Part shown: piece by piece, positions 8,360 through 58,174 of the stretch | Position numbering within the stretch: position 1 is the first letter of the stretch | Layout: every line of letters starts with the position of its first letter | Made by a program: the position numbers and the translations under genes | The notes under the pieces: model-generated | Databases searched by the model: none | Told to the model about the DNA's origin: nothing | The model's input: only the letters and a program-made list of their open reading frames with translations | DNA from: Saxidomus purpurata | Taxonomy: Eukaryota > Mollusca > Bivalvia > Venerida > Veneridae | Assembly (NCBI GenBank): GCA_022818135.1 | Contig: JAFMSR010000010.1 | Coordinates: 13,957,324 to 14,021,323, forward strand | DNA length: 64,000 nt | Direction of reading: 5' to 3'

Positions 8360-8938
8360 CTAACCACTTCTTGTGTTACAAACTCTTTCAACCCAGCTAC
8401 CGAAGACACTTCCTTTTTGGCAAATGTTTTGAAATTCGCCTCTCTTTTTGTTAACAATCAAATCGTCATCGTCATAGCTTGATGTTTTTACCCGTTTCTC
8501 AAATATGTCGTCCCAGAATTTTGAACCAGTTTCAAGTGGTGCTGTTAAAGATGCGCGCGGTCCCTCTCTGAAATCACTGGGTTCTAATCTCGTAGCGAAA
8601 TCGAACTTGTCATCGGAGCTTTTTGTGTCATCTTTGATTTCGGACGATTTTTGGTACTCCATCAATGCATTTTTCAGCAACGTGTAAACATCAGTATAAA
8701 GTTTCAGTTCTTCTCTGGGAATGTCTGAAAAAGAACATTTGGAATAAACAAAAACAAGTATGCATGATCTAGTTACTCATAAATGGCAAGAAAAGGTTGA
8801 CTTAAGCTCCCCAGTGGTGTTTTTGCCACTGACCGTTCCAAGGCGGTGCCCCACTGTGTTCCTTTAATTGTTCGTTTTGTCCTCGTGTGTTTGCTTTGTA
8901 TGCTAGTGTGTGTTGGTAGGGTGTGTGTGGTTGTGTGT

Positions 8939-9016
<78 letters not shown>

Positions 9017-12000
9017 GGTGGTGTGCACTTCTGGGTGCTGTGGGGCTCGTTTTGGGGAGGCTGCGTGTTTGGTACGTGGCATTTCCCTGTTTGATATTAT
9101 TTTTGTTTTTTTGACTTTTTCTGTATACATATTCGACCGGCACTTTTTGGATCAGCAAGTATCCACTCAATTGTGCTTTGATTGAAAATTTCTCATTGGT
9201 TGTATTCCATTAACTTGTTTGTCAAACATAGAACAGAGATCAGTAAGTACGTATTGTTTAGTACAATGTATAAAGATCCGTAATTTTTATTTGGTTATCC
9301 CAGGTTGTCAATTACAGTTTACAGAGGCATAACTGTTTCTGTGACAGTCACTATTATTTTGAGATGATAACTAAGCAAACTATGATATACGTGCAATTCG
9401 TGATTTTTATTCATATACAAGACATTAGCTTATGCTCATGTTACTTCGAATACGAAAATGTAGACTCGTATATAAATCAAAATTGACCGGTATTTAGGTT
9501 ACCGTTTTAATACGTCAGTCCAAATGGGCAATGTCCCATGTTAAACATAGATATCGCACGGCATATTTTGATTTCCAAACTATTAAAGTTTACAAAATAT
9601 TTGAATGTGTATATTGAGTATCTATCAAAAGAATATAACAACTCTAAACTATGTAAAAACAGGCCTGCGAAGATGATACTGACGTTTTGGGCCCGCAGAA
9701 AAATAAATACAATGATCCGTAAGTTGGAGATCTTATTTTTTTCGAAGGCTGACACGATACACCTTTTCAGACCTATGTTACTTGTTTCAAATTATTAGCT
9801 TGTAAAAGGCTAGATAGCGGCTCGTTGGGGTTACAAAGCAAATGAAATGCTGTTTGGGAGAAAACCAAATGAACCTGTTGCTTTACGTCAAACTGAACAC
9901 CTTTTGTTCTTTAAAAAATGGTCAAATTATAGGGCATTTCTATCCGCGGTTATAGCTCTGTTCTGATGGTCACATGTTTTGAAACAATCAAAATTTTAGA
10001 TTTAGTCTTTGACTTTCTCATCTGTAATGAAAGGGAGAGATGTTGAAAGCCAGGCCTTGGTTTGTTTTCATTTTCTTGTTATAAGAAAGATATGCAAATG
10101 TCAGTTCAATAAATATAAACAAAAACACAAGTGGACAAAACAAAAATGGTTTTTGGTGGTGTGCACTTCTGGGTGCTGTGGGGCTCGTTTTGGGGAGGCT
10201 GCGTTTTTGGTACGTGGCATTCCCTGTTTGATATTATTTTTGTTATTTTTGAATATTTTGAAGCTATCTCGTTGATGTCGATATTTATTTTCAAAGTGCG
10301 ATAGTTTTCGATTCATAATACCGTAGTATTATCGATGACACCAATATGAAAATATTTCAAGCTGTTAAAAACTACATCCGTGAAAGCAGACTCTGTAATT
10401 GAAATTAATCTATCCTGTTCATTATCTCATCTTTTCCTTTCTTCTTGAGTTAAGCTAAATTTCTGTTTATTCAGTCAATCACTTTATTTCATTTAGATCA
10501 CTTTATTTTATTTAGATAACTTATCTATTTAAACAATTTTGATACAGACTTTGAGTAAAAAAGCTAATTTTTATTTACAGCATCCACCCAAGCTGAAATA
10601 TAACAGACTAGATAGAACATTAGCATAACAGTATCCAGCGAGAGGTAGGCGTTTTCAGTGCAAGTGTGATCATTTAATTCGTGATAACTACCCGCTTATG
10701 TTTGAAAATTAATACACATGTTATGCTTCATGTTATTCCTTTACACGGTTACTAGTTAGGGAAAAATAGGTATTTTGATTAATAATAATTGCCTTTCGAT
10801 ATATACAGAGCCTTTACCTATTTGATATATCCTTAAAAAATCATAAACTTCTGATCTAGGCAGTTGGAGACCTCAATGCAATGTCTGTTCAGTTTAAGTC
10901 TTGTTCAAGCCAATAACAAGTCGTAATGCGAAGAATGTTTATTACAATGACTGTCAAAATAATTGCACACAATACGAGTTTGTATAAAAATTATAACATG
11001 CGACGAATGTTTATTACAATGTCTGTCAAAATAATTGCACACAATACTGGTTGGAGACCACCAAACACGGACGACCATCAAACCGGACACTTGCGAAAAT
11101 GCTTGATTTTTTGTTAATATTTAAGTCATGTATTGTTGATCAAACAGACACTTTATTTTCAGCAACAAAGTGCAAAACCAACAGTTTAATGTAACTTTTT
11201 GACCAAGAAATCTAACTATTTATTTTGTCATTCACTGGTAGCATGTTCACATTGTTGGGGATTGAAAATGACAGACTGTGCACGCGCAAATTTCTGGGGG
11301 GGGGGCAAATAAAAATCACAAGGGGGGGGGGGGGGGGGGGGTGTTTTAATTTTTTTTTTTGTGATATTTCATTTATGTGTCAAATGATTGAAACAGTTTA
11401 CACAATTTAAAAGCTAACATCAAAAAAAATTAATCTATTTAAACTAGCTGTCCGGAAACATGGTACAGTTGGTCAATAAAATTGAGCAATTTGCTGACCT
11501 CACTACCTGGCCTCAAAAATAAGTTCTTTTTTTGGGAGAAGAACCGAACTCTTCTAAATTTCGATTACTAGTACAAAAATACCACCAGAGTTATCGAAAA
11601 TATGTTTAAATAGTGTCCGGATGTAAGACTCCAACCAGTACGAGTTTGTATAAATATTATAAGATTGAAAAAAGTTTGACATAAATAGAAACAGAACATA
11701 CATAAATAGGGACATAACATACATAAATAGAAACAGAACATACATAAATAGGGACAAAGAGAAGCAGTAGTATTCGTTTAGGGTCATCAACAGCCACAAT
11801 TATAATAACTTATAGAGTGCAGAAGACATTTTCCGATTTAGTTAATCTTTCTACTTTTGTTTCACGCTTTTGGCTGCATTCACATCTTTTAATATCCATA
11901 GTTGATGATAAAAATTACAAAGAAATGGCTTTATTTAATAAGTTGTGAAAAATGGCTATTTCCTAATTTTTATAAAAAAATGACAGCAGTGTAGACAATA

Positions 12001-12541
12001 TATATAAAATGAAAATCTGCAATCGTAATGATCTTATGATATCTTTTTACCTAAAAACTTAATTTCTGCTTATAGAAGATCCTGATCTACAACACAACTT
12101 ATATAAGGACTGACAATAATTATCATGTTGAACTTTAAATCATTCACAATACAAGTTATATGAAGTGACATAAATAAACATCATCTTCAATTCTACTTCT
12201 AACTGTTGTTTACAAAATATGCTTGTCTGAACATACAGAACCATACAATACTCAATTTTTGAAGCCTGATATTTTAATGTGACTAATATATATTTCATTT
12301 CAATACTAAGAGTACATGTAAAAAAAGTGTATTTGCCACAAAGATTTTAATTCTATCAAAATGACATGGATTGATCAGTTTTCTATTAAAAATAACTAAT
12401 GTAAATTATCTTACCTAGTAGGAAAGGAAGAAGAGATTTTTCTTCTCCAGTTGGCCATTGTGGTAATCCATTAGAACTTTCTAAAACTAGTACAAATACG
12501 GCCACTTTAAAAATTGTTCTACGAAGGCAAAGAAGCACCAT
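8360..12541 (-). CDS. Putative secreted cysteine-loop peptide precursor, paralogue 1 (two exons)
   Basis: Predicted 163-residue protein from exon 1 (12541-12415, 127 bp) and exon 2 (8724-8360, 365 bp). A phase-1 intron (donor GTAAGA, acceptor TTCTTTTTCAG) joins codon G|AC. Residues 1-25 look like a signal peptide (basic RR, then VAVFVLVL, then SSNG). An acidic spacer includes FWDDIF (112-117) and DDDD; KKR at 135-137 is a likely prohormone cleavage site. The C terminus is a two-cysteine loop, CQKGSVFGSWVERVC (144-158), followed by NTRSG; the last Gly could be an amidation donor. The loop pattern C-x-[KR]-G-x2-F-x2-W-x3-[VL]-C recurs in the genes at 35870 and 56816. Function is unknown; a peptide hormone or other secreted ligand is inferred. 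The 3.7-kb intron holds family C elements and tandem repeats. The start is the first ATG before the hydrophobic run. Confidence 0.72.
8801..9113 (+). mobile_element. Family C element, full copy with (TG)n core, inside the gene 1 intron
   Basis: The left module (GCTCCCCAGTGGTG to about 8935) and right module (GGTGGTGTGCACTTCTGGG to GATATTATTTTTG, 9015-9113) flank a (TG)n core at about 8941-9014. It is the only copy with both modules, so it defines the family structure. A TTAAGCT left edge is shared with the copy at 1-214. Long frames across the (TG)n are artefacts. Confidence 0.8.
8941..9014 (+). repeat. (TG)n microsatellite, family C core
   Basis: About 36 uninterrupted TG units between the two conserved modules. 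Confidence 0.95.
9115..10148. other. Gene 1 intron sequence, no feature recognised
   Basis: Two overlapping antisense frames (9507-9755 minus, 9538-9798 plus) have no motif. No splice-bounded exon was seen. Confidence 0.35.
10150..10246 (+). mobile_element. Family C right module, solo copy
   Basis: GGTGGTGTGCACTTCTGGG through GTACGTGGCATTCCCTGTTT to GATATTATTTTTGTT. It nearly matches 9015-9113 but has no microsatellite or left module. Confidence 0.8.
10926..11060 (+). repeat. 72-bp direct tandem duplication
   Basis: Units start ATGCG at 10926 and 10998 and share AATGTTTATTACAATG and CTGTCAAAATAATTGCACAC. The spacer piece TACGAGTTTGTATAAA appears again at 11639-11654. Confidence 0.85.
11291..11365 (+). 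repeat. Poly-G / poly-T homopolymer tract
   Basis: G runs of about 10 (11296) and about 20 (11322), then a T run near 11350. Low complexity within the gene 1 intron; run lengths may not be reliable. Confidence 0.85.
11679..11762 (+). repeat. 21-bp tandem repeat, four units
   Basis: Units ACATAAATAGAAACAGAACAT and ACATAAATAGGGACATAACAT alternate (A-B-A-B). The regular repeated peptide in the minus frame is a by-product. Confidence 0.9.
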
Positions 12542-13230
12542 GATTATTTACAAGATGTTCTCTTATCCGAATCGTGTTAAATAGTCTGTTAGAAGAACCT
12601 GTCAACAAAGCTTTGGTGATGACGAAGGTGATGGCATTCATTAAATAACGATTAAATTATAGCACTTTGCGATAAAAACATGCGGGGAAATCAAGAGTTT
12701 TATCTGCAATATCAGTTTTTAGTAATTCGAGCTCAATGCGAAAGTATTCATGAAATCTAAAAGCTCTTTGCCATTGACGAAATTTATATCTTAATATGAT
12801 GCCGAGTCTGGGTCCCTGAGCATTTAAATCTTAATTGCGCATTGAAATTAATCACCTATTGTAATCAGTTTAAAATAAAAAAAAATCTAATGTATTCTAT
12901 GAGAATCATTTCTACTATTGACATTCTAAAACTTGATGTCCTCCGTCTATGTTGTTCAATATTATAATTATATCATGGGAAATCCCCACCAACTGTCCTT
13001 TAGTCGCGACACAAATTGACATGTTAACTGTAAAACCTGACTTCATTGCATCTATTTTAATCAAGTTAAATAATGTATATAGAATAGTTAGCAGAGGAAT
13101 CATATCTTACATTCATGTTGCAAAATAAAAAATAAATGAAACAAACGCTTCTAAAATCAGAAGACAACGCGCTAGATTTTCAACAATTGAAATTTGACCT
13201 ACTAAGTAAAGGTAAAATGTAAAAGAGAAG
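12542..13230. other. Upstream region of gene 1
   Basis: This is 5' flanking sequence of the gene 1 start at 12541. No clear TATA box or other regulatory site stands out. A short duplicated motif occurs further upstream at 13484 and 13657. Confidence 0.3.
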
Positions 13231-13249
13231 TGTTTCTTTATCAGAGTGT

Positions 13250-13465
13250 AGCCCATAAGGGAAGCCATTTTTGACTGATGAGACACCTTCATTCTGAGCA
13301 CCTTTCTGAGGATCATATCCTTCAATACCCGGCACCAGACAGTTATGCATACGGTAACCATTATGTAACTCTCTGCCGTCTCTGGTGGCTCACCAATCGG
13401 CCATATGACACTCAAACCTTCGATCTACCGCTCCCAAGGCGAATGCCTTTACAACAAGTGCAAAG
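13250..13465 (-). repeat. Possible tRNA-derived SINE
   Basis: On the minus strand, ATTCGCCTTGGGAGCGG resembles a tRNA anticodon arm (loop CTTGGGA, anticodon TGG). GGTTTGAGTGTC resembles a weak B box. The remainder would be the SINE body. The D arm is poor, and a 67-codon plus frame (13278-13481) overlaps. Confidence 0.35.
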
Positions 13466-13483
13466 GAGATGGTCTATTTAAAA

Positions 13484-13682
13484 GAATGCTAATGAATATG
13501 TTAATTGTAAAACTCAGTTTTATAGGGTTATTTAATGATTGACTTCAAATTTTTGACAAAGGTTTTTAAATGATTTCAGCGATCCGGCATTTGCTAGTAT
13601 TGTTGCTGCTCATTTTTAATAGCTTTGATGATGCGTCACTTTTTATTTAAAATTGAATGCTAATGAATATGTTAATTGTAAC
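13484..13682 (+). repeat. Direct repeat pair flanking 150 bp
   Basis: The block AATGCTAATGAATATGTTAA, followed by TTGTAA, occurs at 13484 and again at 13657, 173 bp apart. Confidence 0.7.
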
Positions 13683-14110
13683 AACATCTGTATTCATAAG
13701 GTGGTTTTTCATATAGAAATGTTGGGTTTTATATTTATTTATCGTGTACTTAAATAAACATTTTTTTAATAAAACCCGCCGCATTAGTCTGATCCATTAT
13801 GTATTATAAACCTTACGTTGTTTTTCATCACGCGGACGTTCGCGTCCTTTTTAACGGACGTGACGTCTTTTTGTTTTGTATACTGTATGTTGTATATTTT
13901 CTGACGAAGACATACATGCAAATTGAAAACTTCGTGTTGTCTTGATTTTATTTATACTAGTGCATATTTTGTGGAGTTTGCGTTTTCTTGCTATTGTATC
14001 GTAATTAAACAATAGTAAACGTTGTTTTGTATTAAAATTATTTAAAATTCTAACATGACTCACGATTTTATCACTATATACAAAGAGTAGAAAAATTATG
14101 TTATATTTAA

Positions 14111-14312
14111 GAAATAATCTATGGCTTGGAGTGCTTTATCGAAATTGAAGCATTCCCCGGAGGTGATGTGCATGGCGATATAATTCACGAGGGCGAAGCT
14201 AGAGCCTGCGTAATATTCACTGGGCTTCGACCTCGTGAATTATTCCGCCAGGCACATTACCGATGGGAAATGCTTCAATTTCGATAAAACACTCCAAGAC
14301 ATAGATTATTTC
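14111..14312. mobile_element. Foldback element (202 bp)
   Basis: Two arms of about 90 bp are near-perfect inverted repeats: GAAATAATCTATGGCTTGGA at 14111 and TCCAAGACATAGATTATTTC ending at 14312. Inner blocks include GAAATTGAAGCATT/AATGCTTCAATTTC and ATTCACGAGG/CCTCGTGAAT. It is a non-coding MITE-like hairpin. Confidence 0.85.
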
Positions 14313-14919
14313 GATTCTTAGAAGCCGATTTTTAAAAAACTATCGTAACTACTACGGACCTTTTTTCAGTTCGGCGGTAATGTGTAAAATAGCATAAATA
14401 GTGGCTGTTGGAATTCACTCCCCTATTCGGGCAACCATTCAAGATATCAAACATAACTATATTATACAAACTTATTTTAGTTTAATCATCTAATACATAA
14501 AATATAAAAAGAAATACCTGACTGACATTATGCAGAAGACGTCAGATTCAGAACCTAACAAAGCAGCCAATCGATTTAAATGCGTACCGTTTATTTGAAC
14601 TGTACAACGTTTTAACGTGGAGTAATGACGTCAGTGTGATGACGTAAACGTTTTCATTCATAGTTTTGTCTCCCGGAATCAAAACATTGTATGACTGTTT
14701 ATCCTGAATTTCTTGGCCTTTTTTAAGGAAAACAAGTTGAGGGTATTCTGAGGCTTACTTGACGCAATCAAAAATAATATTTAGGTTCTTAACAAATCTT
14801 TTTCATGCGACTGATGTATTTATACTGATATTATTATTTATATGTTTTATTTTTGCGCGGAAGTAAATACGAAAAGTCGGAAGGAGCTACTTCCATGTCC
14901 GAAACTCCGCCTACTTTTC

Positions 14920-14948
14920 CGAGTGCTTTAATATGATTAAAGCACTCG
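14920..14948. repeat. Perfect 13-bp palindrome
   Basis: CGAGTGCTTTAAT and ATTAAAGCACTCG are separated by ATG. Confidence 0.9.
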
Positions 14949-15542: not shown

Positions 15543-15675
15543 AGAAATAATAAATGTCTCCCTGTATTTTATCGTTGAATAAAATATAGTCAGGAGTGTT
15601 GATGCGTAGTAATTAAATCACGAGTGACTGTATTTTATTCAACGATAGAATATTGGGAACAATTTATTATTTCAT
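15543..15675. mobile_element. Foldback element (133 bp)
   Basis: Inverted arms TATTTTATCGTTGAATAAAA and TTTTATTCAACGATAGAATA, with outer GAAATAATAAAT / ATTTATTATTTC. Its GAAATAAT termini resemble those of the 14111 foldback, suggesting one family. Confidence 0.75.
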
Positions 15676-16570: not shown

Positions 16571-16577
16571 TATACTA

Positions 16578-20338: not shown

Positions 20339-21150
20339 TTAAAGTGGAATTAGGCACATTTTTTTTCAAGTAAAATCCAGCTAAAATATGTGTGTGTAAA
20401 AAAGGGTAGAGGAAATAATATCTTCTAAAGGGACATACGATATAACTGGTGTTCAACTAAATAACCTCCATAAATAATAGAATCTTTGGAAGTATTATTA
20501 CTTAACTTAAAAGTTTCAGCTATGCATTCACAGTCATTACCGATAAAATCAGCGGTTTAAGATATACTGCAGAACGGTAAGCCATTCAATAATCTATGTA
20601 GAGTTGTTGTTGTTGTACAATTAATGGCTGGATGTTTTTTATTACAAATGACCTCTATATTGATTAAATGTGGTAAAATGGAGCAAATTTCGTCATAGGT
20701 TCTTCTTTGAAATTGTATTCATTTATCATTTTACGTTCATTGAAGACATAATCTACGTTTCGAGAATATAATCTGTTAGATGTAGGGAAGGCCCCTTTAA
20801 CCCAATGCATCAAACTCTTCCTGATACCAGTGCGAAATAATAACTTTGCAAATATCATTTTTCCTATTTTGACTGGGAGTCTTTTTAAAAAAACAACTGC
20901 ATGCAGTAGTTGCTTCCCTACCACTGCCGAAATCTCTACCAACAACAACAAAAACACAAGGGAGGCCACTGCGAAGAAAGGAACTATTATTTGATTAGGT
21001 CGATTTTTTTATTTCTCAAGCACAAACTTCTAATACTAATGCTGTATTATCATTAATTTAACACATTTAAATGCACAGCAACCGAAACTTGCTTTTATTA
21101 AACTCACCAAAAACACGATGTGCAGTAAGATGCGCATAGTGACACTTTAA
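20339..21150 (-). mobile_element. MITE family D, copy 1, interrupted by a family B element
   Basis: Ends TTAAAGTGGAATTAGGCACA and TGCGCATAGTGACACTTTAA match the termini of the uninterrupted copy at 40793-41241, in reverse orientation. A family B MITE occupies 20426-20800. Without it, the flanks AGGAAATAATA and CCCAATGCA(C)CAAACTCTTC rejoin as in the intact copy. Confidence 0.8.
20426..20800 (+). mobile_element. MITE family B, copy 4, nested in family D
   Basis: Left TAAAGGGACATACGATATAAC and right TGTAGGGAAGGCCCCTTTAA with the full family B interior. A 101-codon minus frame beginning MASLVFLLLLVEIS spans the D/B boundary and is therefore chance. Confidence 0.85.
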
Positions 21151-26882: not shown

Positions 26883-27427
26883 ACCACTATTAGCTTATTT
26901 AAACCAAATACCATTTCTATAAGTTAAATCAAAAGCCTTACGAAAATCAACGAATGTGGTGAACAAACTTCTTTTTTCGCTTTTAATAACCTTTTCAATA
27001 ATAGAATTAAGCACAAAATGCAATCAACAGTGTTTTTTCCTTTTCTAAATCCATATTGATTATCGTTCATTTGATCATTTTCTTCGGACCATTTACGTAG
27101 CCTGTTGTCAAGGATTATCGAAAATATTTTTGAGAAAATACTTGTGAGCGAAATTCCTCTGTAATTGTTGACGTCACTAGGATCGCCCTTCTTTGGAACT
27201 GGAACTATTACAGCTTTGGTCCAAGAATGAGGATACACACCATTTGTAAAAATATGATTAAAAAGTTTGCCCAATGCAGGGGATATCAAGTTATTGCATT
27301 CTATAAAAATTTCAGGTATAAGTAAATCATACCCTCCACTTTTGTTTCTGTTTAGTGAGGAAATAGCTTTTGACACTTCAGCAATAGTAATTTCTGAATC
27401 CAACATGTCAACGTGATTCAACTCCAT
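26883..27427 (-). pseudogene. LINE copy 1 RT N-terminal part
   Basis: SSLNRNKSGGYDLLIPEIF, VIVPVPKKGDPSDVNNYRGI and NDNQYGFRKGKNTVDCI are classic non-LTR RT blocks. After a frameshift, FVDFRKAFDLTYRNGIWFK carries the first catalytic Asp (motif A). Confidence 0.9.
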
Positions 27428-27487
27428 GTCATTTCTATGTAAAAACTGTTCAACATCATCATTTGCAAAAATATCTTCATCACTGAA

Positions 27488-28006
27488 TTAATGTTTAAAA
27501 TGGTCATAAAACTCCTCTTTAGACACTTTAGATATAGAATTTTTCTTTTTAAATTTTCGTATTTCGCGCCAAAATAATTTGGGAGAATTTTTTGACATAT
27601 TATGCATTTTGTTTTTTTGAGAAATGTGACATTTGGTCTTCGCTCGCCTTTTTGCCAGTCTATACAGACGTCTATTCGTTACTAAATTACATCTATTCAA
27701 TATTGACCTGTTATTTGTGTATACTCTGTTTGCTGCAACAAAACTTTTTCTTGCTTGTTCGCAGTTATGGTCAAACCATTCACTCTTATACTTTCTCCTG
27801 TATTTATAAGATCTGAAAGTTTTACTAATACCAAATGTATCATATGCCTTATTATACAATATATCAGATATATAATCAACACCTTGATCTAAGCTTAAGC
27901 TATTTTCTATAACATCGTTCACAATAAAATCAATATTTGGCAATTCAGAAGTAATTTTCTCTCTAAATATATCATTCAAATTATCATCCCATTTTAATTT
28001 TTTCAC
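27488..28006 (-). pseudogene. LINE copy 1 linker between endonuclease and RT
   Basis: A 172-codon frame rich in Lys/Arg, with SEWFDHNCEQARKSFVAANR and SKNSPKLFWREIRKFKKKN, corresponds to the EWLNDECRIAKAKF / SKRSPKMFWQNVNRFR stretch of copy 2. It is a structural linker with no enzymatic motif. Confidence 0.8.
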
Positions 28007-28027
28007 ATGAACGGATTCACTGCAACT

Positions 28028-28762
28028 TTAACGCTTTCTACAATAACAATTCAAGTCAATATGTATCGGTGCATGTGGAGAGAAAGTGAATAAATCATGT
28101 ACTACACAGTCACTTATAATGGGAAATATTCGATACGACATTAACGCATAGTCGATAACGCTATTACTTGTACTTGACATAAATGTGAAATGACCAATAC
28201 CGTAATCTTGACCAAACCTTCCGTTAACAATTTTCAGATCAGAACACAAACATAAATCGAGTAATTTTAATCCCGATGAATTAACAGTTTTATCTAGAGA
28301 ACTTCTCACGGGTAACTTATCTAAATTAAAGTTACATGTACAATCTTCAATGTCAACCGAATGTATATAACGCTCAAAAACGTCTGCAGACTCTAAGATA
28401 TCGCACTTTTCACCGCATCTCGATTTCAAGTCTCCCATGATTCCAACAGAGCCCAAAGAAGAATATTTTCTTACGTTAGCTTCAAGCAGTTTGAAAATCC
28501 TATTTCGTGCGTGTGAAAATATACGGAGTTGCTTGGGGGATATACCGAAAGCATAAATAGATATCGTCTTCATTTCCAAAAAAGGTTTTCAGTAGTTTAA
28601 TCCATATTACACCGCTCTTATCGATGTCTACAATTTGAACACCTTCTTTCAAAGAGTCATTAAGTAACAAACAAACACCCCCGTGTCCTCTTCTACTTGT
28701 ACCATTTAAACATTCAGGTCTAGGAATAGAAACTGATTCATAACATGAGAGAAAAGAGATAA
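28028..28762 (-). pseudogene. LINE copy 1 APE-like endonuclease, 5'-truncated
   Basis: The N-terminal part appears in a second frame (ECLNGTSRRGHGGVCLLLND). The main frame (28579-28028) carries MGDLKSR and FSPHAPI where an active enzyme has GDxNSR and SDHxPI. Both catalytic positions are therefore altered. Confidence 0.85.
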
Positions 28763-28766
28763 GTTG

Positions 28767-29066: not shown

Positions 29067-30062
29067 TGTCTCACTTTTCTCCAGTGGAATGTACAAGGCA
29101 TTTCGAATAAACTCAACGACTCTGATTTCTTAAATTACATTTCGAAATACAACATTTTGGGGAGGCCGCGTTTTTGGTACGTGGCTTTCCCTGTTTGATG
29201 TTATTTTTGTTATTATGTTATTTACAGAAACATGGTATTCACAGGTAGCAAATATAGAAATCAAAGGATATCATCATTTTAGTTGCCCACGGCCGAAAAC
29301 GAATAAAAGAGCTAAACGGTATAGTGGGGGTATTATTGTATACTATATAAAGAAACATTGCCATGTAAAATTCAATTGGAAAAGATTAATCGTAACGGTA
29401 TATTGTGGTTTAGGCTGACATGTAATCAGGATAATGAATTTAAAGATATTTTTTTCTGCGTGTGTTACATTCCACCTGAAGAATCTTCGGTTTATAAAAA
29501 TCAGCAATCAAATTTATTCGAGTACGACTTTTTTGAAATTTTGAGTGAAGATATTTTACATTATAGCGTTTTAGGGGAAGTTAACATAACTGGCGATCTA
29601 AATAGTCGGATAGGTGAATTGCCAGATTATGTAGAAAATATTCAGCTTGATAGATTTTTACAGTTATCATTGCAAGCTGATTATGACTTTCAATATAGAA
29701 TATCAAGCGATAAAAAAGTTAATTCTTTTGGGCATCGGTTAATTTCTCTGTGCAAAGAGCACAGTATGATTATTGCTAACGGCCGTCTTGAGCCAGGAAA
29801 ATGTACTTATTTTTGCGTTCATCGTAATAAAGTAGGTGCAAGTCTTGTTGACTATTTGATTACAAATTATAGAAATTTTGAATTTATATCCGATCTGTCT
29901 GTAGTAGATTTAAATGATCACTCTGATCACTGCCCGATTTCTTTTAATTTTAACTACCATAGCTTTGTAAATTGCAATGAAATAGAATCTGTAACGGAAA
30001 CTTTTTTGGGACAGCGAAAAGGCAGATGTTCTTCTGACAGAACTAGAAAGCAAAAGAAATGA
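29067..30062 (+). pseudogene. LINE copy 2 APE-like endonuclease
   Basis: CLTFLQWNVQGISNKLN (catalytic Asn) is followed after the family C insertion by TETWYSQ (catalytic Glu). GDLNSR and DHSDHCPI follow, so all the expected catalytic boxes are present. A frameshift near 29360 separates the TETW part from the main 234-codon frame; another at about 29990 breaks it again. It would nick target DNA for target-primed reverse transcription. Confidence 0.9.
29152..29214 (+). mobile_element. Family C right-module fragment inserted in the LINE endonuclease
   Basis: TTTTGGGGAGGC, GTACGTGGCTTTCCCTGTTT and GATGTTATTTTTGTT match the family C right module. It interrupts the endonuclease between KYNI and TETW codons, so it arrived after the LINE. 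Confidence 0.85.
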
Positions 30063-30182
30063 ACGCACTGATATAACAAATAAAATTGTAGTTGGTGAGG
30101 GTGAAATTGATTCTAACATTAAATCGTTTACGGACAATATTTATGACTGTTCTTTCAAGATATTCGGAAAAACCGTCTCCTC

Positions 30183-30320
30183 TAAACATAAATAATAATA
30201 ATAATAATAATAATAAAATCTTTATTTCATGAAGGTTACATATCAGACATACAAGGATTTACATGTAAATCAAAATACATCTTATTTTCATATGGCCTAA
30301 GATCACGCTTTAAACATAAA
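30183..30320 (-). mobile_element. 5'-truncated LINE tail inserted in LINE copy 2, with target-site duplication
   Basis: Read on the minus strand, a short 3' end finishes AAATAAAGATTTTATTATT with (TTA)n. This resembles the tail at 40088-40149. The host sequence TAAACATAAA is duplicated exactly at 30183-30192 and 30311-30320. Removing the insert restores the linker reading SSKHKSEWLNDECR. Confidence 0.85.
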
Positions 30321-30497
30321 AGTGAATGGTTAAATGACGAATGTAGAATTGCAAAAGCAAAATTTTTATCAGATAAAAGAAAGCTTGCGATTCATAAATG
30401 TGATGAAAATGTAATTAATTTTTTAAATAGCCGGAAACATTTTTGCCTGATTAAAAGAAAAGCCAAAAATAAATATTTTACTGAACAAAAACGGAAA

Positions 30498-31500
30498 ATG
30501 TCAATTTTGAGCAAAAGATCGCCAAAAATGTTTTGGCAGAATGTTAATAGATTCAGAAATGCTAAGAAAAATAGAAGTGGTGATATCGATGCAGCTGATT
30601 ATGCTAATTATTTTTCGCAAACTCTTTGTACATTATCTGACGAAAACTTCGTACCTACGTCTGTTATTTTGAACCGCAATATTGAAATTGATGAATTAGA
30701 TAAACCCTTTGATGAACTAGAAGTGGGAAGAACAATTTCTTCCTTAAACAGAAACAAAGAACCGGGATGTGATAGAGTCGTTTCAGACTTTTTTATTGAT
30801 GCGAAACCTTTCATTACTCCTTTTTGGTTAAAATTTTTAATAAAATTTATAGTGACGGTGTATACGTCTGGTATACACCGTCACTATAAATTTTATAAAG
30901 GTATTATCGTGTCTATACATAAAAAGGGTGATAAAAGTAACCCATCAAACTACAGGGGAATAACTCATTAATACGATTGCTAAGTTGTTCTCACTACTAC
31001 TACGCAACAGGTTAAATAAATGGTGTGAGCACCAGAGTATTTTTAACGATGTTCAATATGGTTTTCGAAATGATAAAAGAACTGTTGACTGCGTTTTTAT
31101 ATTACACAGTATTATTAAAAAAATCGTCTCAATGAATAAATCTCTTTATTGTGCTTTCATAGATTACGAAAAGGCATTTGACACAATTGTAAGGGATGCC
31201 TTGTGGTTCAAGCTTTTTGACTTAGGAGTTAGCAGCAAATTTTTAACAATGTTGCAATCTATTTACAGTCATGTATCATCATGTGTTAAAACATTTTCTA
31301 GTGTTTCGGACTTCTTTGATGTGTCCTTAGGCCTAAAACAAGGAGAACCACTTTGGCCAATCTTATTCATATTATTCGTGAATGATGTAACGAATAATCT
31401 TGATTTTAATTCACTTACAGACTATGATTTGAATCAATTGTGTATACATATACTATTGTTCGCAGATGATATGGCGCCTCCAGGCACAATTAGATAGTCT
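30498..31500 (+). pseudogene. LINE copy 2 reverse transcriptase domain
   Basis: SSLNRNKEPGCDRVVSDFF, VSIHKKGDKSNPSNYRGI, VQYGFRNDKRTVDCVF, AFIDYEKAFDTIVRD (motif A Asp), GLKQGEPLWPILF and LLFADDMA (catalytic Asp pair) are in order. Breaks occur near 30971 and 31490. The catalytic residues survive although the frame does not. Confidence 0.92.
30849..30898. repeat. Perfect inverted repeat inside the LINE RT
   Basis: AAATTTATAGTGACGGTGTA and TACACCGTCACTATAAATTT face each other around TACGTCTGG-type spacer. The related LINE copy has no such hairpin here (it reads FTNGVYPHSWTKAVIVPVP), so a local inverted duplication after insertion is likely. Confidence 0.85.
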
Positions 31501-32598
31501 GTATATGTATTCACTTAAATGGGGCCTGAAGATCAATATAAATAAGACGAAAATATGTATATTTAGAAAAAGGAAACAGAATGTTACTTTCCAGTGGTAC
31601 ATTAACAATGAACAATTAGATATTGTCGACTCTTTTTGTTACTTGGGTGTAAAGTTTTCAAATAACGGCTTTATGACTGAAGCAATAAAGGCTTTAGCCG
31701 ATCAAGCAATAAAAGCTGTGAATGGTTTATATGCTGTATTTTCAAGATTGAAACTTGACGTAAAGACAAAACTAACACTATTGGACCGTATGGTTGAACC
31801 TATTCTGTTATATAGTTCAGAAGTATGGGGGTATATAACGCAGAAATTGTGGATCGTGTACATATGAAATTTTGCAAAAAAATATTTGGTGTAAAACAAC
31901 AAGCCCCGAATATGGCTGTCTTGGGGGAGCTAGGAAGATATCCTATATAAATTCTGTGCAAGGAAAGAGCATTGAAATATTGGCTGAAATTGGTTAACAA
32001 TCCAACCACTACTGAGGCCAACATATTCAAATTAAACTGTAGCTATGTTAATTTTCTAAGAAGTTCATATTAGGGTAAGCATATAAAAGACATATTAGAT
32101 AAGCTTGGCTACGGATATTTATGGAATAATGTACTACCAAATATTAACCATTTGCCAATGTTGAAAACACGTTTGAGAGAACAGTTCATTCAGGAATGGC
32201 ATTTTTCTATTACTAATTCTCCTAAATTAGAATACTATGTGCGATTTAAGAACACATTTTTATTAGAACCATACTTCAGCCTAATAGAAAATGATTACTT
32301 TAGAAAGTTATTTACAGGTTTTAGACTGTCTTCTCATCGACTAGCAATCGAGACAGGTAGATATACTGGGGTACCACGTGAACAAAGAATATGTCTTAAC
32401 TGTCAGTTAAATGCAATTGAATCAGAATATCATGCACTGTTGATATGTGCAAAATACAGAGACATACGAATAAATCATTTGAGTAATATAGCTTGGCTAA
32501 ATCTGAATAAATTTGATAAATTAATGTCATCCAAAAGTAAAAGAACACTTGTTCATGTATGTAAATTTTTAAAAGAAACATATGCGTTACGGAATTAA
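31466..32598 (+). pseudogene. LINE copy 2 connection and C-terminal cysteine motif
   Basis: SLKWGLKININKTKICIFRK and DSFCYLGVKFSNNG, then a frame broken near 31867, FGVKQQAPNMAVLGELGRYP, and the last frame (32152-32598). That frame has SSHRLAIETGRYTGVPREQR and CLNCQLNAIESEYHALLIC, a C-x2-C...H-x4-C motif typical of this LINE group. Confidence 0.88.
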
Positions 32599-35869: not shown

Positions 35870-37125
35870 TTATGACTGTGTCAGTCTTTGACACACTAAA
35901 CGCAACCAATGATTGAATGGCCTCCCTTTTCTACAATTCCTCAATATGTTTGTAATGTTATGAACCTCTCCTGTTCCATCATTTCTCTTTACGTCCATTT
36001 CATTCTCCAAATCTCGAGAACTTCGTATATCATGTTTCCAAGATTCTTCACTAGAATTTATGACATCTGATTTAAACTGGTTTAGAATTGCGTCATACAG
36101 TATTTGTTTCTTTGTGGTTCTATCCGTTGCTCTTTTGTTGATCACACGATTCCATATAGCTGATGCAATATAGTTTTCTGTCAAAGGGCTTTTGATTATA
36201 TCATCATCTGTAAACACATGAAGTATCAAATATCAGTCGTTCTTGCAACTTGATAATTTTGACTTACTCGCGAGTTTTGAAATTCGAAAGTCCGGTCCTT
36301 TGAAGCTCAAGAAAACATAAAATAGTTTGTTCTGAAACAGCAAACACAAACCGACCTCCCGAGTAAACAAATTCTATGAAGATAACACATAATTATTAGT
36401 CTAAAACTTGCAAAACCGTGTTCAGCAGTTTACAATGAAGTTAAATTTTGGTAAAACGTAAGAATCGATTCCGTGAAAATGATTAAAAAAGGATATGATT
36501 TTTTTATATTTAATATGACAGAAAAACGACACACAATGAAATGAAATTCAAACGAAACGTCTTTAAAAACCAACAACATTATAATAATATGACTTATATG
36601 TAAGGAAGGTATATTATTTCATATATAACGAGTATTATGATAGTCGGCTACATGTTCTTTCATCGTCAGCTGACTAAATAATACTCCTCTTCTTTATTTC
36701 TTTATACTAATTTAATTTAGCTCAATTGTGAAAGCTTGTGGCTTATCGAGTCACTCTCGAGTCCGCTTCCTGGAAAAACCGGTACTGGTGGCATATGAGG
36801 AGGTACGGTCGTGAACCCAGTTAGCTCGAACCCGTAACCTCTAGGATGAGCGGCAGACACCTACCTTAACCTCTATACCACCGCTCTACTCGCCTCTTAC
36901 TTGATCCGGCAACATAATTTTAAAACAAACGACTTTATAGGTCAACAACCTGTTACAGTTATATATGCCACTTCATAGAATTGCGCGCACATACATACCA
37001 TTTGAACGATTTTTCTCATTTTCTTCCAGGGAATAAATCCAGTTTCTGGATAAGCACGCTGTTGACGTGAGGATAGAGAACCAAATGTAGCATGAAAGCT
37101 TCATAACTTCTGCAAAATAGTTCAT
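35870..37125 (-). CDS. Putative secreted cysteine-loop peptide precursor, paralogue 2 (two exons)
   Basis: Predicted 154-residue protein from exon 1 (37125-36999, 127 bp, the same length as gene 1) and exon 2 (36207-35870, 338 bp). The 791-bp phase-1 intron has donor GTATGT and acceptor GTTTACAG, completing an Asp codon G|AT as in gene 1. A signal peptide runs from either Met1 or Met8 (MKLSCYIWFSILTSTACLS). The spacer carries LYDAIL (79-84), equivalent to FWDDIF in gene 1. A KR site is at 116-117. The loop CRKGRPFNHWLRLVC (134-148) is followed by QRLTQS. One NIT glycosylation-type triplet lies between KR and the loop. The intron contains a tRNA-derived SINE. Function is unknown; the shared architecture supports a family of secreted, processed peptides. 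Confidence 0.75.
36746..36898 (-). repeat. tRNA-derived SINE in the gene 2 intron
   Basis: On the minus strand, GCGGTGGTATAGAGGTTAAG fits an A-box region and ACGGGTTCGAGC a B box. A tail ends CAGGAAGCGGACTCGAGAGT, which recurs at 7020-7062. Antisense to nothing; same strand as gene 2. Confidence 0.65.
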
Positions 37126-39087: not shown

Positions 39088-40097
39088 CTACAATCGATAT
39101 TAAATAATCCGTTTCAATTTGTTAATAAATGGTGTCAATTAAATAATATGGCATTGCATCCAACAAAAACTAAATGCATGATAACTGGGTCTGCTTATAA
39201 ATTAAAATCCACTCGAAATCTACAACTATTTATCAAAGACATACGTCTAGAAAACGTTACTTGTCATAAGTTACTTGAATAAACTAACCTGGCACAATCA
39301 AATTGACAATGTCTGTAAAAAACTGAATAACAAAATTGCCCTGTTTAAGAACATAATATATTATGAAAGTCATGTTTTTAACGCATATATATTGCCCATA
39401 TTTGACTACTGTTGTTCGGTCTGGGGCAAAGGAACAAGTAATTATGTGAATAAGATAAATATACTACAGAAACCAGTTGCAAAAATAATACTTAATAAAC
39501 CGATGCGAACACCATCGGCAGAGCTATTCCAAGAATTAAAATGGCTGAGTTTTTCAGACCTGTGCTGTCCTGGTATATAAAATAACAAGGCCCCATCATA
39601 TTTGGCAGATATTGTAACGTTTTCTGACAATAAAACATACCAGTTAAGATCAGTATCAAACAAGGATCTTGTCTTACAGATAACACCTCGTACTAAATAC
39701 ATGGAAACATCATTCACAAATTATAGCAAAAATATATGGAATGACATTCCTTTAAATATAAGTACTTCGAAAACTCTTAAAACGTTCAAAGGAAATTATA
39801 AGCATTATTTATTGTGTGAATGGTAAGTTAATCTACATTTTCTATAACATATTTATATGTTTAATTTATATTCATATCCTTTGAGTGTCTGTCAGTGAAT
39901 GTTTATGTATGAATGCATTTATTAACAGAATGTTTAATAGTCTTATATGTAAATGTGTCTTTCTAGTTTTAACTTTGACAGGTGATTTATTTTCAAGTAT
40001 AATGCTTTTTCTTTTGTTTCTTTACTTTGAAGGCCATATTGAAAATTAGAATATATGTTTTCATATGTCTAAATGTGTAACCTTCGGTAAATAAAGC

Positions 40098-46034: not shown

Positions 46035-46035
46035 T

Positions 46036-47350: not shown

Positions 47351-47351
47351 T

Positions 47352-52350: not shown

Positions 52351-52564
52351 CCTTAATGCGTTTTTCATGATAAAGGAATAACAATGTTTTAGAAATATTT
52401 TGCTTACAGTAAGATTAAGACCTTTTTAAAAAATGGGAATAGATGTGCATACAACATGTTTAAGAAAGGAATTCAATTAAACTGACCAGTGTTTTTTAAT
52501 ATTTTGACAATCTTTGAGATACGACGGCAGTAACAAGAACTTGTTAATACTGTGTTCTGACAAA

Positions 52565-52954
52565 TAAAGGGACATACCCTATAACTGATGTCAAACTAAA
52601 TAACCTCAAAAACACAAAATTAATAATATAATATTTAGAAGTATTATAACTTAATGTTAAAGTTTCAGCTTTGCATTTCCAGTCGTTATCGATAAAATCA
52701 GCGATTTAAAATATACTGCAGTACCGTAAACCGTTCAATAATTTATGTAGAATTGTTGTTGTACAATTAATGGGTGGATGCAATTCATTACAGAAAGCTT
52801 CTATATTGATGAATTGTGGTAAAATGAGAAAATGTAAAATTTTCGCCATATGTTCTTCTTTGAAATTGTATTTATATATCATTTTACGTTCTTTGAACAC
52901 ATAATCTATGTTTCGAGAATATAATCTGCTAGATATAGGGAGTGCCCCTTTAAA
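52565..52954 (+). mobile_element. MITE family B, complete copy 7
   Basis: AAAGGGACATACCCTATAAC and ATAGGGAGTGCCCCTTTAAA ends with a full interior. A 64-codon minus frame here is a by-product. Confidence 0.85.
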
Positions 52955-53305
52955 GGAACATTTTATTAACTGAATATCTTAAACAGGTTTTGAGAACTGA
53001 CTATTTTCGTACCCCTATCCGCATTTTGGCATATGGCAAAACATGTCAATTTAGTCACAATAAACGATGTGATTTTTTTTCGCAAAAATGTTCAATCTTT
53101 TTGCACTAAAATTTTCCTATCCAATAATTTTTTTTCAAGTTAAATTATGATTTTTGAAATATAACAAGTGTAAATTTCTGGAAATGCAAAAATCTAAAAC
53201 CTCACCAGTGACACCCCCTCCCCCTATTTGCATGTAAAGCCACAGTGTTTAAATAAGAACAGTACTGATTGTAAGCAACAAGGTTAAAGTATATTTATTC
53301 ATTTT

Positions 53306-53930
53306 TTTGTTTTTGTGATGTATCCTATTATAAATATAATAGTAGATTACCCGATAAACTCACCATTCACTCAGTGAAAATTATCAACATTTCCTACCCG
53401 GATTAACGTCAAAATGTATACCAAGCGTAATGAATGCAGGACGCCATGCGACGATCGGGTGACATTTTATTGAAACAAACTCATCAGAAGTAGTACTTGA
53501 GACATACAATTAACAGAAAAAATGTTGGTATCGATGTAATATCACGATAATTTGTTTCGTAAACATATTCCATTCGGTGAAGTAATAAAGTGATATTACA
53601 CCGTAACCAACACTTATCCTCTATTTCACTAATTGTATTTTATGAAAATGTGCAAAAGACTAACCGTTTAACAACAATATACAGCATCCAGGCTCACAGA
53701 TTTCTTTCAAAATTTGTTTTTTTGGCGCGCATGTTGTTGTGTTAAAGGTTTTCAATTGTGATGCAACGCGATGGTTCGAAAAAGAAACCTTACGTGAGAA
53801 AGTGCTGGCACCTAAGCAGGGAACCATATTTCATCTGTTTCCCTGTAGATTGCAAACTATCAATAGTGAACTATACTATACTAATATATCTAGAAAAATG
53901 TTAAGCACCCCCTGCAAGTTATATAGTGAC
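53306..53930 (+). repeat. Duplicated module M4, copy 2
   Basis: High-identity copy of 48203-48820 without the following M2/M3 modules. Confidence 0.92.
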
Positions 53931-55995
53931 TTCTAATAATTATATCATGGAATCACCTTCAAATAAACGAAGGAAAAAATGCTGTAAATCATATCATCAA
54001 CCCTCTGCACGAACTGCAAACAATTTTGCACTTCAAGTGAAAGTATATTGTCTTTAAAAAGACCCAAGGTTCAGTCAGGGTCAGGGTGGTCATCCAAGCA
54101 CAGTGAAGGTTAACTCTGCTACTGGACGTATGAAGTAAGGATGTCACCTGAAGACTCAAAATTGCATTTTTTACTCTAATTCGCCACCTAAAATCTTCTT
54201 ATGACCTATACAGTCCCATACTTAATGTTTTTTTGATTTCGGATGAAACGACACTCGTTTATTGTTTAAGAATATCACCCGAGACCCAACATAAAATTAC
54301 TGCAATACAATATGCATGGAAAATCTCATGCAGTGCGACAGTATAAAATTCTGTAGCGTCTAACATACATATAATTGTGAAATAAAAACATAAAACATAA
54401 CTTTCTCTTGTTTGATAATACACTAAAAGTCCTGTCAACACTATTGAGCTTTTCTGAATCTTGTGAAGATAAATAACTTTTCAAACCCACTTTTTTTATC
54501 TAGCTTTTGTCTTTCTGAGACTTTTTTTCTGTTTTCGAAGGTAACAAAATTCCTATCGGTCTACATATACAGACTAGACAGGTTTTTTCTTCTTATAGAA
54601 AGTGTCGCAAAAGAGAGAGGTCAATGTCTGACTTTTACAGAATTACATTTCGAGAAATTATGAAAGGTGAATTATTTGTTTAATTTTTATAAATTTGAAT
54701 ACTTATCCTAAAACGAATTACCATGATTTCTGAATATAGGGCACACAATATGGAATTGAAATGCTCCTGGTATATTTTAACTTTTAAACAAGTAACCTAC
54801 ATTTGTTCACGCATATGATCCGGTATCAAGCATGACCGAGATCTGAATAAAGCTAAACGCTTAGTTTAAACAATTTTTAATAATTCAATGTATTTACAAA
54901 ACAAAAACATTACATAATAAATACATACAGGATAGAGTAGAAAGCTAACAGCTTTTTGGTAAACTATCTCATGAAAAATCTAAATTACATCTAAGGTAAC
55001 AATATTTCATAATTCTATTTCTAAATTAGAGTTAAAATGACTTTTAATTGATTCTCTGCACTTGTTACTATATTAGCTTTACAAACCCTTTTTTAATTTA
55101 GATTTAATAAAAAGAATAAAATTTGGTTGATATTACAGGAATAGAACCATTTTGATTAAAAATAACAACTTTTCTATAGTTCAAAAAAGATTAGGAATAT
55201 TTCAAATAGTTGTTTATTTTTGTACCTGTGTCACCAAATGTTGATATTTAGCTGTGTATAATTGTACTTATTATTAATTAATGACATTTTTCGACTCGTA
55301 ACTTCATCAAGGAAATCGTCCTTGCTAAATTTTACAAGGATTCTAAAGATCACAAAATATTGAAATATACTAGGTACTTATTTCATGTGACCTAGTTACC
55401 TTGATGTTGTTGAGTGTTTTTAAGGTTATTATAACATTCTCACAGAAACCTAGTTTTTAATCAGCAAGACAAAATCATCCAGGACTGACACACAAGATTT
55501 ATTAAAAAAAGGTAAAAGTTTCGAGGGTAACAAATCCTACGACATTCTTATTTCTAATATCAAGTAAAAAGGTCGACCGTCGAGTCCGACATGACATATC
55601 AGCATTTTAAATACAAGTCTTACTGTCGATCTTGACGATGAAACCGGACATTGTATTTCTTTGTATGATATATATATTGTTCGAGTGTCGAACTAGAAAT
55701 TCAAATTTAGCACACTGAATGTGATTGTTGCACGATATTCAAATATGTATTGGCGATCGTCTTCTTGCTCTGGATGCTTGTACATAACATATATTTGAAC
55801 TTAGCGAAATGACCTGAATATAATGCAGGATGTATATGCTATAGTGCAATGACAAACGCAATGAAAGAATTAACCATTATATACTTGTTTTAATAACGGA
55901 CAAAAAGAGACAGAAGACACAGTAAACTGCCCAATTCCATTTGATGAAACATTAACAGTTCAGTATATACATTTTTTACATCTCCCTGAACATAC
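53931..55995. other. Unassigned AT-rich sequence
   Basis: Small frames (54259-54441 minus, 54463-54663 plus) have no motif. No repeat recognised in 2 kb. Confidence 0.35.
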
Positions 55996-56361
55996 TTAAA
56001 ACTGCTCGCTATCATATTTTGGTGAAAAAATAAAGTTCATCAAACTCTCTGAAAATAACATGTTTAGAACTAATAGTCAAACAAAAAGGTTCAAGTATAA
56101 ATGCATGTGAAACAGTATCTGTAAATTTGAAATTATACTCTACCAAAATTATCAAGCGTTACTACGGTTTTGAAATTCCAATATAAACATATAATATAGC
56201 GGTGCCGTGAAACCAACTTCACCAATATTTTACATGAACGTTTGCAAATTTCTACCTAAAATTTTACTTAAATTGTTGATTCTAGCCATCGGTTTTACAT
56301 TTTACGTAAAAATATATCATCGTTAAAAACTTCAACGGCAACTGTGAGCGAGCAGCTTTAA
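55996..56361 (+). mobile_element. MITE family A, complete copy 4
   Basis: TTAAAACTGCTCGCTATCA at the left and TGTGAGCGAGCAGCTTTAA at the right, with TTAA at both ends (55996-55999, 56358-56361). The interior follows copy 1. Its right TTAA is also the left edge of family B copy 8. Confidence 0.85.
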
Positions 56362-56725
56362 AGAGGCCCTCCCTAAAATTTGTGTCAAAAGCATAAATAA
56401 AGACTCTTTGCAAGAACAGAAGTATTATAATCTAACCTAAAAGTGTAAACTATACCTTCCAGTCATCATCGGCAAAATTAGCGTTTTGAAATGTGTTTCA
56501 GTAGCGCTAAATATTCAATAATCTTCGCAATGTTGTTGTTGTACAATTAATATGTTGATAGCAATTTGTTACAGAAGGTCTCTATGTTTTCTATTTGTGC
56601 TAAAATGAGACATGTACATTGTAAGTTGTTTTTAAAATTGTATTTATATATCATTTTACGACCATTGAACATATTATTTATGTTAGGAGAATATTATTTG
56701 TAAGATGCAGGGAGTGCCTCGTTTA
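56362..56725 (+). mobile_element. MITE family B, diverged copy 8
   Basis: AAAGAGGCCCTCCCTAAAAT to GGGAGTGCCTCGTTTA with the standard interior (GTTGTTGTTGTACAATTAAT). It lies a few bases beyond gene 3's AATAAA cluster (56730-56742, minus strand), so gene 3 transcripts may end at its border. Confidence 0.75.
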
Positions 56726-56729
56726 GTTC

Positions 56730-56742
56730 TTTATTTTTATTG
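56730..56742 (-). promoter_or_regulatory. Probable polyadenylation signal of gene 3
   Basis: On the minus strand CAATAAAAATAAA gives two overlapping AATAAA hexamers about 75-85 bp past the gene 3 stop codon at 56816. Confidence 0.6.
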
Positions 56743-56815
56743 CATTAAATCTGCTGTGTGTAACAAAGCGTTATAATGACTAACAAAGGTGTGTTGTCCT
56801 TCGATTCACAGGATT

Positions 56816-57797
56816 TTAAATAGACGTCAGTGACCTACATAAAGTTCTGTGCCACAGACTGAATATGTGACCTCTCAGACAATCCTTGCGAACTTTGGTA
56901 ATATCCAGCCTCTTTTTCCGTGTTATCTTCCACTCTGTTTCCTCAGGATTCATGTCAGATTTTCCACGTTCTGTGCTTAGGTCTGGTCCGTTGCGATCCT
57001 TATCAAAAATACTGAAGAATGCGGAGACAGCATTAGGGTTCCTGAAAAAGTTTCCCCGCAGTATAGGAATTGGTGAAAGCGTTTCGGACTCTGTCTCCGT
57101 GGATTGTGGATTTTGAATTTTCAAATCAAACATGGAATTTAACGTATAACCTGAAAAAGAAATTTTGAATAGTTTTATTATCGTCAATGATATCGTCGTC
57201 TATTTGTGTTATAATGTATGTTATATGTAAATTATCAGTGACTAATGTTCTTTATTACTGATATGATACGCCTTAGGAGTAAGTCGGACTATCATTAAGA
57301 ATTCAGCGTCTGCTCAATAGCAGTAAGCTTCCTACTGTCATGTGATTCAAGGTATTGGCTTTTTGCCGAAAATTCTAAATGAAAACACCTCTAATCCAAT
57401 GAACGTATCACTTGAACCTAGCTAGCGTTAAAGATTTCGTATGTTTAATCAGTTATAGTTAAAAAGCATTGTTTAAGCAGTGTGTAAGTTTGCCGAATTC
57501 AACTTAGTTTAGATTTTTGGCGATGAAAATATGAAATGCAAATGTACAAACGAAAACAAATAAATTAAAACATTTAAGATCCTGATTACAACTTACATGT
57601 AATTTCGGAATTCGGCGAAAAGGGAAGCAAAATAATACTTGAAACGACTAAGTAAACATATTTGGCGAAAAACAAGGAAAAAAAGATACATTGTACTAAA
57701 TAAACCTAACTTTTTTGCCCCACTGTGTTCCTTTAATTTTTTGTGCTTTTAAGCGGGTGTGTGTTGGGAGTGTATATGTGTGTGTGTACATGATTGG

Positions 57798-57865
<68 letters not shown>

Positions 57866-57893
57866 TGGGGGGGGGGGTTTTTTTGGGGTTTTT

Positions 57894-57945
<52 letters not shown>

Positions 57946-57995
57946 TTTGGGGGGGGGGGGGGGGTTTTTTGGGGGGGGGGGTTTTTTTTTGGGGG

Positions 57996-58030
<35 letters not shown>

Positions 58031-58174
58031 CTTTTGGAAACTAATAAAATAGATACCTTCTTCTGGGTGTCCTGCTATTGTAATCGAGTCAATGGGAATG
58101 CCGTTTGTTTCTATGGTCACCATAACAAGAAGCACCGCAATCACACCAAAGCAATGAACGCACGAAAATCCCAT
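56816..58174 (-). CDS. Putative secreted cysteine-loop peptide precursor, paralogue 3 (two exons)
   Basis: Predicted 150-residue protein from exon 1 (58174-58057, 118 bp) and exon 2 (57150-56816, 335 bp). The 906-bp phase-1 intron has donor GTATCT and acceptor TTTCTTTTTCAG. The signal peptide has a core VIAVLLVMV and ends ETNG before IPID, resembling the SSNG-LP end in gene 1. The spacer carries FFSIF (84-88). A furin-like RKKR is at 117-120. The loop CLRGHIFSLWHRTLC (130-144) is followed by RSLTSI. Only these two cysteines lie outside the signal peptide. The intron contains a family C fragment with long G and T homopolymers. A double AATAAA lies 75-85 bp past the stop. The same exon phase, cysteine spacing and cleavage site in three loci make chance frames unlikely. 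Confidence 0.75.
57714..58026 (+). mobile_element. Family C left module with expanded G/T homopolymers
   Basis: GCCCCACTGTGTTCCTTTAA and GTGTGTTGGGAGTG are the left module. The expected TG core is replaced by G runs (57799-57863, 57904-57943 and others) alternating with T runs, ending with about 29 T. Apparent 89-141-codon Gly/Phe frames are artefacts. Run lengths may include assembly error. Confidence 0.8.

Follow-up and report, generated by a model that had tools for sequence, protein, structure and literature searches.

The stretch analysed here, a window of 64,000 nucleotides from the bivalve Saxidomus purpurata (contig JAFMSR010000010.1, C10:13957324-14021323; G+C content 33%), carries three genes, g1, g2 and g3, each of which would encode a secreted precursor that ends in a two-cysteine loop. 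A six-frame pattern search with the loop motif C-x-[KR]-G-x2-F-x2-W-x3-[VLI]-C matches the window at three places, each of them on the minus strand, and neither the strict pattern nor a looser one has any six-frame match in the window besides the loops of these three genes. Three same-strand loop genes with 13 residues between the cysteines were what the original prediction described, and they are recovered by this search and are absent from simulated windows. The count of three holds for the window itself, but the array has at least four members, the fourth (g4) lying just outside, and all four loops have 13 residues between their cysteines. A real cluster of paralogous, putatively secreted, prohormone-like peptide genes, bigger than first noted, is well supported by these sequences.

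Forty windows generated by an order-3 Markov model contain a mean of 0.0 such loops, versus the three in the real window, which rules out a chance origin. The plain spacing C-x13-C, by comparison, is seen 94 times in the window versus 65 expected, so the motif, and not the cysteine spacing, is the improbable part.

Each gene consists of two exons separated by a phase-1 intron, as first described, although the inner exon ends had been placed one base off the GT-AG boundaries; the junction codons of g1, g2 and g3 are G|AC, G|AT and G|GT. Exon 1 of g1 (12415-12541, minus strand, as are all gene features below) runs from an ATG through a hydrophobic core to a phase-1 GT donor, and contains the start codon, the predicted signal peptide and the first spacer residues. 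Exon 2 (8360-8724) follows an AG acceptor as an open frame that completes a 163-residue precursor, and contains the remaining spacer, a putative basic cleavage site KKR (8441-8449, by codon reading), the loop CQKGSVFGSWVERVC (8378-8422, by pattern search) and the stop codon. In g2, exon 1 (36999-37125, starting at Met1 or Met8) ends at a phase-1 GT donor, and exon 2 (35870-36207) follows an AG acceptor and carries the spacer, a putative KR site (35984-35989, read from the translation), the loop CRKGRPFNHWLRLVC (35891-35935, by pattern search) and the stop codon of a 154-residue precursor. The first exon of g3 (58057-58174; start codon, predicted signal peptide and first spacer residues, phase-1 GT donor) and its second exon (56816-57150; AG acceptor, spacer, KKR, loop and stop codon, 150-residue precursor) are both matched by the corresponding exons of g4. 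Its putative cleavage site KKR (56909-56917, from the translations) is NKR in g4, and its loop CLRGHIFSLWHRTLC (56837-56881) comes from the pattern search. The loop is followed by NTRSG in g1, QRLTQS in g2 and RSLTSI in g3.

Two features lie within the introns. The g1 intron holds two near-identical elements of about 60 bases beside a GT repeat (about 9021-9080 and 10157-10220), and the part of the g3 intron that adjoins exon 1 (57700-58044) is a long stretch rich in G/C homopolymers, where the assembly may be unreliable.

The hydrophobic cores of the signal-type exons score 2.86 in g1, 1.81 in g2 (the weakest of the three) and 3.22 in g3. Accordingly, a simple scan for such exons with a cut-off of 2.0 recovers g1 and g3 and misses g2; it also finds one further candidate upstream of g3. 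We note that a g2 start at Met8 (MKLSC) would align with MVLLC and MGFSC. The spacers have net charges of -6, -1 and -3 in g1, g2 and g3, respectively, so that the acidic spacer of the original prediction is clear for g1 but not for g2 or g3. The further claim, a basic cleavage site followed by a C-terminal loop, describes all three genes in the window.

The fourth copy was found by searching the genome (1,134,997,084 bases in 4232 contigs) with the g3 C-terminus, which matches at C10:14027558-14027659, about 6 kb past the window. On the minus strand, it spans window-relative positions 70238-71612 (loci L010 and L014), with exons at 71495-71612 and 70238-70563, and encodes 147 residues with KR and the loop CLRGHHFSPWHRTLC. 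The g4 precursor is identical to that of g3 at 114 of 147 positions and stops three codons before it; the two loops differ by two amino-acid changes, none of them at C, R, G, F or W. In all four copies KR stands immediately N-terminal of the last 26-37 residues (KKR, KR, KKR and NKR), and the stop codon lies 3-6 residues past the second loop cysteine. No further loop was found in 200 kb on the g4 side of the window (16,733 bases of which are unknown) or in 20 kb on the other side. About 100 bases past the g3 stop codon begins a dispersed repeat roughly 300 bases long (56385-56718), from which the g3 transcript may obtain its 3' end; relatives of the repeat, 72-74% identical, lie at 4625-4953, 20469-20788, 52637-52946 and window-relative 70904-71163.

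Local alignments of the C-terminal regions of g1, g2 and g3 score 50, 39 and 61, above all 2000 composition shuffles for each of the three pairs, whereas spacer alignments exceed chance in none of the three (2000 shuffles). For exon 1, shuffles align as well in 18 of 2000 cases for g1/g3, 171 for g2/g3 and 1072 for g1/g2. Because the spacers and most exon-1 pairs are at chance, the paralogy of these three genes rests on the loop and the common gene layout. Small similarities exist elsewhere: g1 and g3 have ESSNGLP and ETNGIP near the likely signal cleavage position, and g2 and g3 share [ND]-I-T before the loop and L-T after it. The earlier view that almost nothing else is conserved is therefore right for the spacers and two of the exon-1 pairs but slightly too strong with regard to the flanking motifs and exon 1 of g1/g3. 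The loop is the clearly conserved part, as would be expected of a receptor ligand.

The closely related g3 and g4 allow coding and noncoding positions to be compared. Their blastn alignment has one gap opening in 446 coding columns, located in the last codons, and the 1139 noncoding columns contain 32 (Fisher's test, P=0.0005); mismatches amount to 11.0% of coding versus 14.9% of noncoding positions (P=0.04). The amino-acid changes are distributed as 8 of 39 residues in exon 1, 23 of 81 in the spacer and 2 of 27 in the mature peptide (mature versus spacer, P=0.033), and the nucleotide changes as 4 of 81 in the mature part versus 43 of 360 elsewhere (P=0.07). The reading frame of the pair is constrained and most of its residues are not; the comparison provides the best evidence of coding in the family, and it is sound evidence for g3 and g4. 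Decaying or never-expressed copies, with frames left open by an old duplication, would account for a ratio of nonsynonymous to synonymous divergence (dN/dS) of 0.99 and for the early stop of g4. The rarity of coding gap openings argues against decay, as does the retention of the loop, the KR site and the splice phase in four copies even though g1, g2 and g3 are very divergent, and we regard it as highly improbable.

In our interpretation, which we hold to be probable by a narrow measure, these are tandem prohormone genes whose mature product, a helical hairpin closed by a disulfide, would act on a receptor. The layout, the splice-compatible frames, the paralogy, the constraint on the g3/g4 frame and the smaller number of changes in the mature peptide are directly supported, and the main argument for the hormone reading is that conservation sits in the peptide and the KR site, not in the signal or the spacer. 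The signal peptide would take each precursor into the secretory pathway, where a proprotein convertase would cleave after the KR kept in the four copies and release the last 26-37 residues as a C-terminal peptide. One disulfide would join the two cysteines of this peptide and hold a hairpin made of a short helix, a K/R-G turn and a second helix, on which the G, F and W residues would be presented. The released peptide would act on a receptor at the cell surface, a G-protein-coupled one being the most likely kind, and the spacer may aid folding or routing while being free to drift. We infer the signal cleavage, the convertase cut, the disulfide, the receptor, the tissue and the role of the loop peptides from this organization.

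The predicted mature peptides carry net charges of +1 (g1), +4 (g2) and +4 (g3), which discriminate little between the possible readings. Set after spacers of lower charge (-6, -1 and -3), they would also suit host-defence peptides, in which the spacer masks a cationic, membrane-disrupting C-terminal peptide until a convertase releases it, and tandem copies diversify. The tandem array, the dN/dS near 1 of g3/g4 and the phase-1 introns that are shared with the myticalins of mussels (PMC5577615) point the same way. The g1 peptide, however, is barely cationic, none of the four peptides exceeds its shuffled versions in hydrophobic moment (70 to 243 of 1000 reach the same value), and the pattern of conservation is opposite to that reported for myticalins; a defensive role is thus rather unlikely.

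Tandem copies that have diverged strongly while keeping their scaffold residues, together with the more recent duplication that produced g3 and g4, would fit yet another role, that of reproductive or waterborne recognition peptides (gamete recognition, pheromone or spawning) diversifying fast on a fixed scaffold. The overall dN/dS does not exceed 1, about 37 of the 47 g3/g4 changes being nonsynonymous, as the ratio of sites predicts (P=1.0), and no known family was matched in the searches made. A recognition role could also merge with the hormone reading, and we consider it unlikely.

AlphaFold2, run with the three-sequence alignment, predicts a helical hairpin for both C-terminal ends submitted: the 42-residue end of g2 has helices at residues 15-24 and 30-40 (predicted local distance difference test, pLDDT, 78; predicted template modelling score, pTM, 0.47), and the 30-residue end of g3 has helices at residues 3-12 and 18-28 (pLDDT 81, pTM 0.37). 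In both runs the two cysteines lie within the helices that flank the K/R-G turn. This placement would suit a single disulfide and, with alignments so thin, provides a lead.

Searches for relatives covered domain, protein, structure, genome and text collections. Pfam has no match for g1 or g3 and one below the cut-off for g2 (E 0.15). A large protein collection, whose coverage of bivalves is uncertain, gave no match for g1 (E<=1), for the three-sequence alignment (E<=10) or for a joined C-terminal query (E<=10). Among the sequences of the Protein Data Bank (PDB) the g3 C-terminus has no match and the profile two insignificant ones. Viral contigs (18 stretches with the pattern) and prokaryote genomes (26), where bivalve genes are not expected, gave none that was confirmed. 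In the literature searched, which included passages from five molluscan and spiralian surveys (PMC8398477, PMC5996578, PMC6425005, PMC8557429 and PMC4200219), no family with a 13-residue loop of this motif is described, and six loop fragments searched for as text had no match. The family could still be a known bivalve one missed by these searches, none of which was made against an annotated mollusc protein set: the protein-collection search depends on shared five-residue words and is blind to distant relatives. Given the surveys and the unmatched loop fragments, that explanation appears quite improbable. The description of the family as possibly undescribed thus stands in the sense that the databases and literature searched yielded no relative, and its novelty is unproven, bivalve protein coverage being uncertain.

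Within the genome, the g2 protein as a query matched only itself in an insensitive search; of two weak genome-search matches, one (L011) looks like a reverse-transcriptase fragment and the other (L012) like noise. The K-type loop core has 72 matches (33+39) versus 52 (19+33) for the reversed pattern. Among the 63 of these 72 that were checked for stops, 50 have none, and 40 of the 48 that are open besides g1 and g2 were examined; of the nine others among the 72, eight contain a stop in frame on visual inspection, and one (on C1526) is letter-identical to an open match on C1430. The second cysteine is correctly placed in five of the 40: L053, L054, L057, L064 and L071. L053 has KR before its loop, but only 28 open residues precede the loop, and with the near-identical L052 it looks like a repeat; L057 has RK, but only 34 open residues before the loop; and L071 has a longer frame but lacks a basic pair within the 60 residues examined. 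None of the 40 matches, viewed as short stretches, was judged a copy of the family, which is confined to one cluster as far as the K-type loop search and the g2 and g3 queries reach.

The window also contains pieces of open reading frame (ORF) that resemble non-LTR (long terminal repeat) retrotransposons in both orientations, at 26924-28588 (minus), 29325-32598 (plus), 547-867 (minus) and 39251-39580 (plus). Pfam applied to 10 ORFs of the window gave one match above the cut-off, RVT_1 at 26924-27487, and Rfam and tRNA scans had no match. An ORF at 3542-3853 (plus) has a middle part, AKRPMALEIL, that resembles the final stretch of a protein kinase domain, but it has no Pfam match at E 0.1. Six neighbouring ORFs contain ordinary domains according to Pfam. 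One ORF, L017:6509-7315 (plus; window-relative 100509-101315), matches CHB_HEX (E 1.8e-11); on the g4 side of the window, it is the closest ordinary gene observed that is not a transposon.

Several observations weigh against a prohormone cluster. The signal core of g2 is weak, and its signal exon is the weakest part of the gene models. The g2, g3 and g4 precursors do not end in Gly and hence carry no amidation signal. By the Nei-Gojobori method, g3 and g4 differ with dN 0.115 and dS 0.116 (ratio 0.99), and their mature part has 3.5 nonsynonymous and 0.5 synonymous changes, so purifying selection on the amino acids is not demonstrated; with so few nucleotide changes in the mature part overall, gene conversion or chance could also explain its low amino-acid change. 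The structure models (pTM 0.47 and 0.37) were built on only three sequences and are therefore a lead only, and a Foldseek comparison with the PDB gave 13 matches, the best with E 4.6 and none significant. Finally, relatives appear in none of Pfam, the PDB, the large protein collection, the viral contigs or the prokaryote genomes.

Orphan precursors are regularly reported in molluscan surveys, and the loop genes form a candidate new family of a known precursor type. More speculatively, and with a likelihood that we place well short of even, they would represent a new lineage of animal signalling peptides: a single-disulfide helical hairpin of the form C-x-[KR]-G-x2-F-x2-W-x4-C that expanded in tandem in a bivalve, with the loop as the ligand face and a receptor family as yet unpaired. 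In an oyster survey, peptides with an internal disulfide mostly yielded no interpretable mass-spectrometric fragments unless reduced (PMC4200219), so such families may be under-reported. If expressed and processed, the loop peptides would offer a new ligand family for orphan bivalve peptide receptors; bivalves matter economically, and little is known of their endocrine control. With its motif defined, the family is easy to seek in other genomes and to synthesise.

The precursor layout resembles those of somatostatin, urotensin II and melanin-concentrating hormone (MCH), a likeness drawn in the original prediction that holds for the layout but not for the size of the loop. The loops of somatostatin, allatostatin-C, urotensin II and MCH have 10, 6, 4 and 8 residues, respectively, and the 13-residue loop in all four copies argues against membership in any of these families. 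Like somatostatin and allatostatin-C, the family has a putative signal peptide, a long spacer, a basic site, a presumed single-disulfide loop at the C-terminus and aromatic residues in the loop; unlike them, it has a longer loop, lacks their core motifs and is predicted to form a helical hairpin. Urotensin II precursors also place a Cys-loop peptide at the extreme C-terminus, but its ring is short and of the CFWKYC type, which is absent here. The rings of natriuretic peptides have 15 residues between the cysteines and start with C-F-G, and the 13 residues, the C-x-[KR]-G start and the missing Pfam match exclude that family. Cysteine spacings are shorter in GGNG (8), CCAP (5) and calcitonin-type (5) peptides, none of which the family joins.

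A urotensin II-type precursor has been reported in oyster (PMC8398477). The precursors of elevenin (L11) conserve little save two cysteines in one peptide, with 8 residues between them in oyster (PMC4200219); the poor conservation outside a two-cysteine peptide is common to both families, but the spacing (8 versus 13) and the motif differ, so the family is not elevenin as described there. Molluscan insulin B chains mostly have 11 residues between their last two cysteines (PMC5996578). Insulin/relaxin B chains resemble the loop in enclosing hydrophobic and aromatic residues between a pair of cysteines, and differ from it in the 11-residue spacing. The insulin/relaxin superfamily is rejected on further grounds, as a CC...C...C A chain is absent, the stop codon lies within six residues of the loop and there is no Pfam match. 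The antimicrobial myticalins of mussels are, like the family, multigene and secreted, with a dibasic site and a phase-1 intron (PMC5577615), so a phase-1 intron does not discriminate. Myticalins are described as linear, with a conserved signal and propeptide, and their hypervariable mature region precedes an anionic C-terminal extension (PMC5577615). In the present family, the mature part is C-terminal, contains two cysteines and is itself the conserved part, and its spacers align at chance, the reverse of the myticalin pattern.

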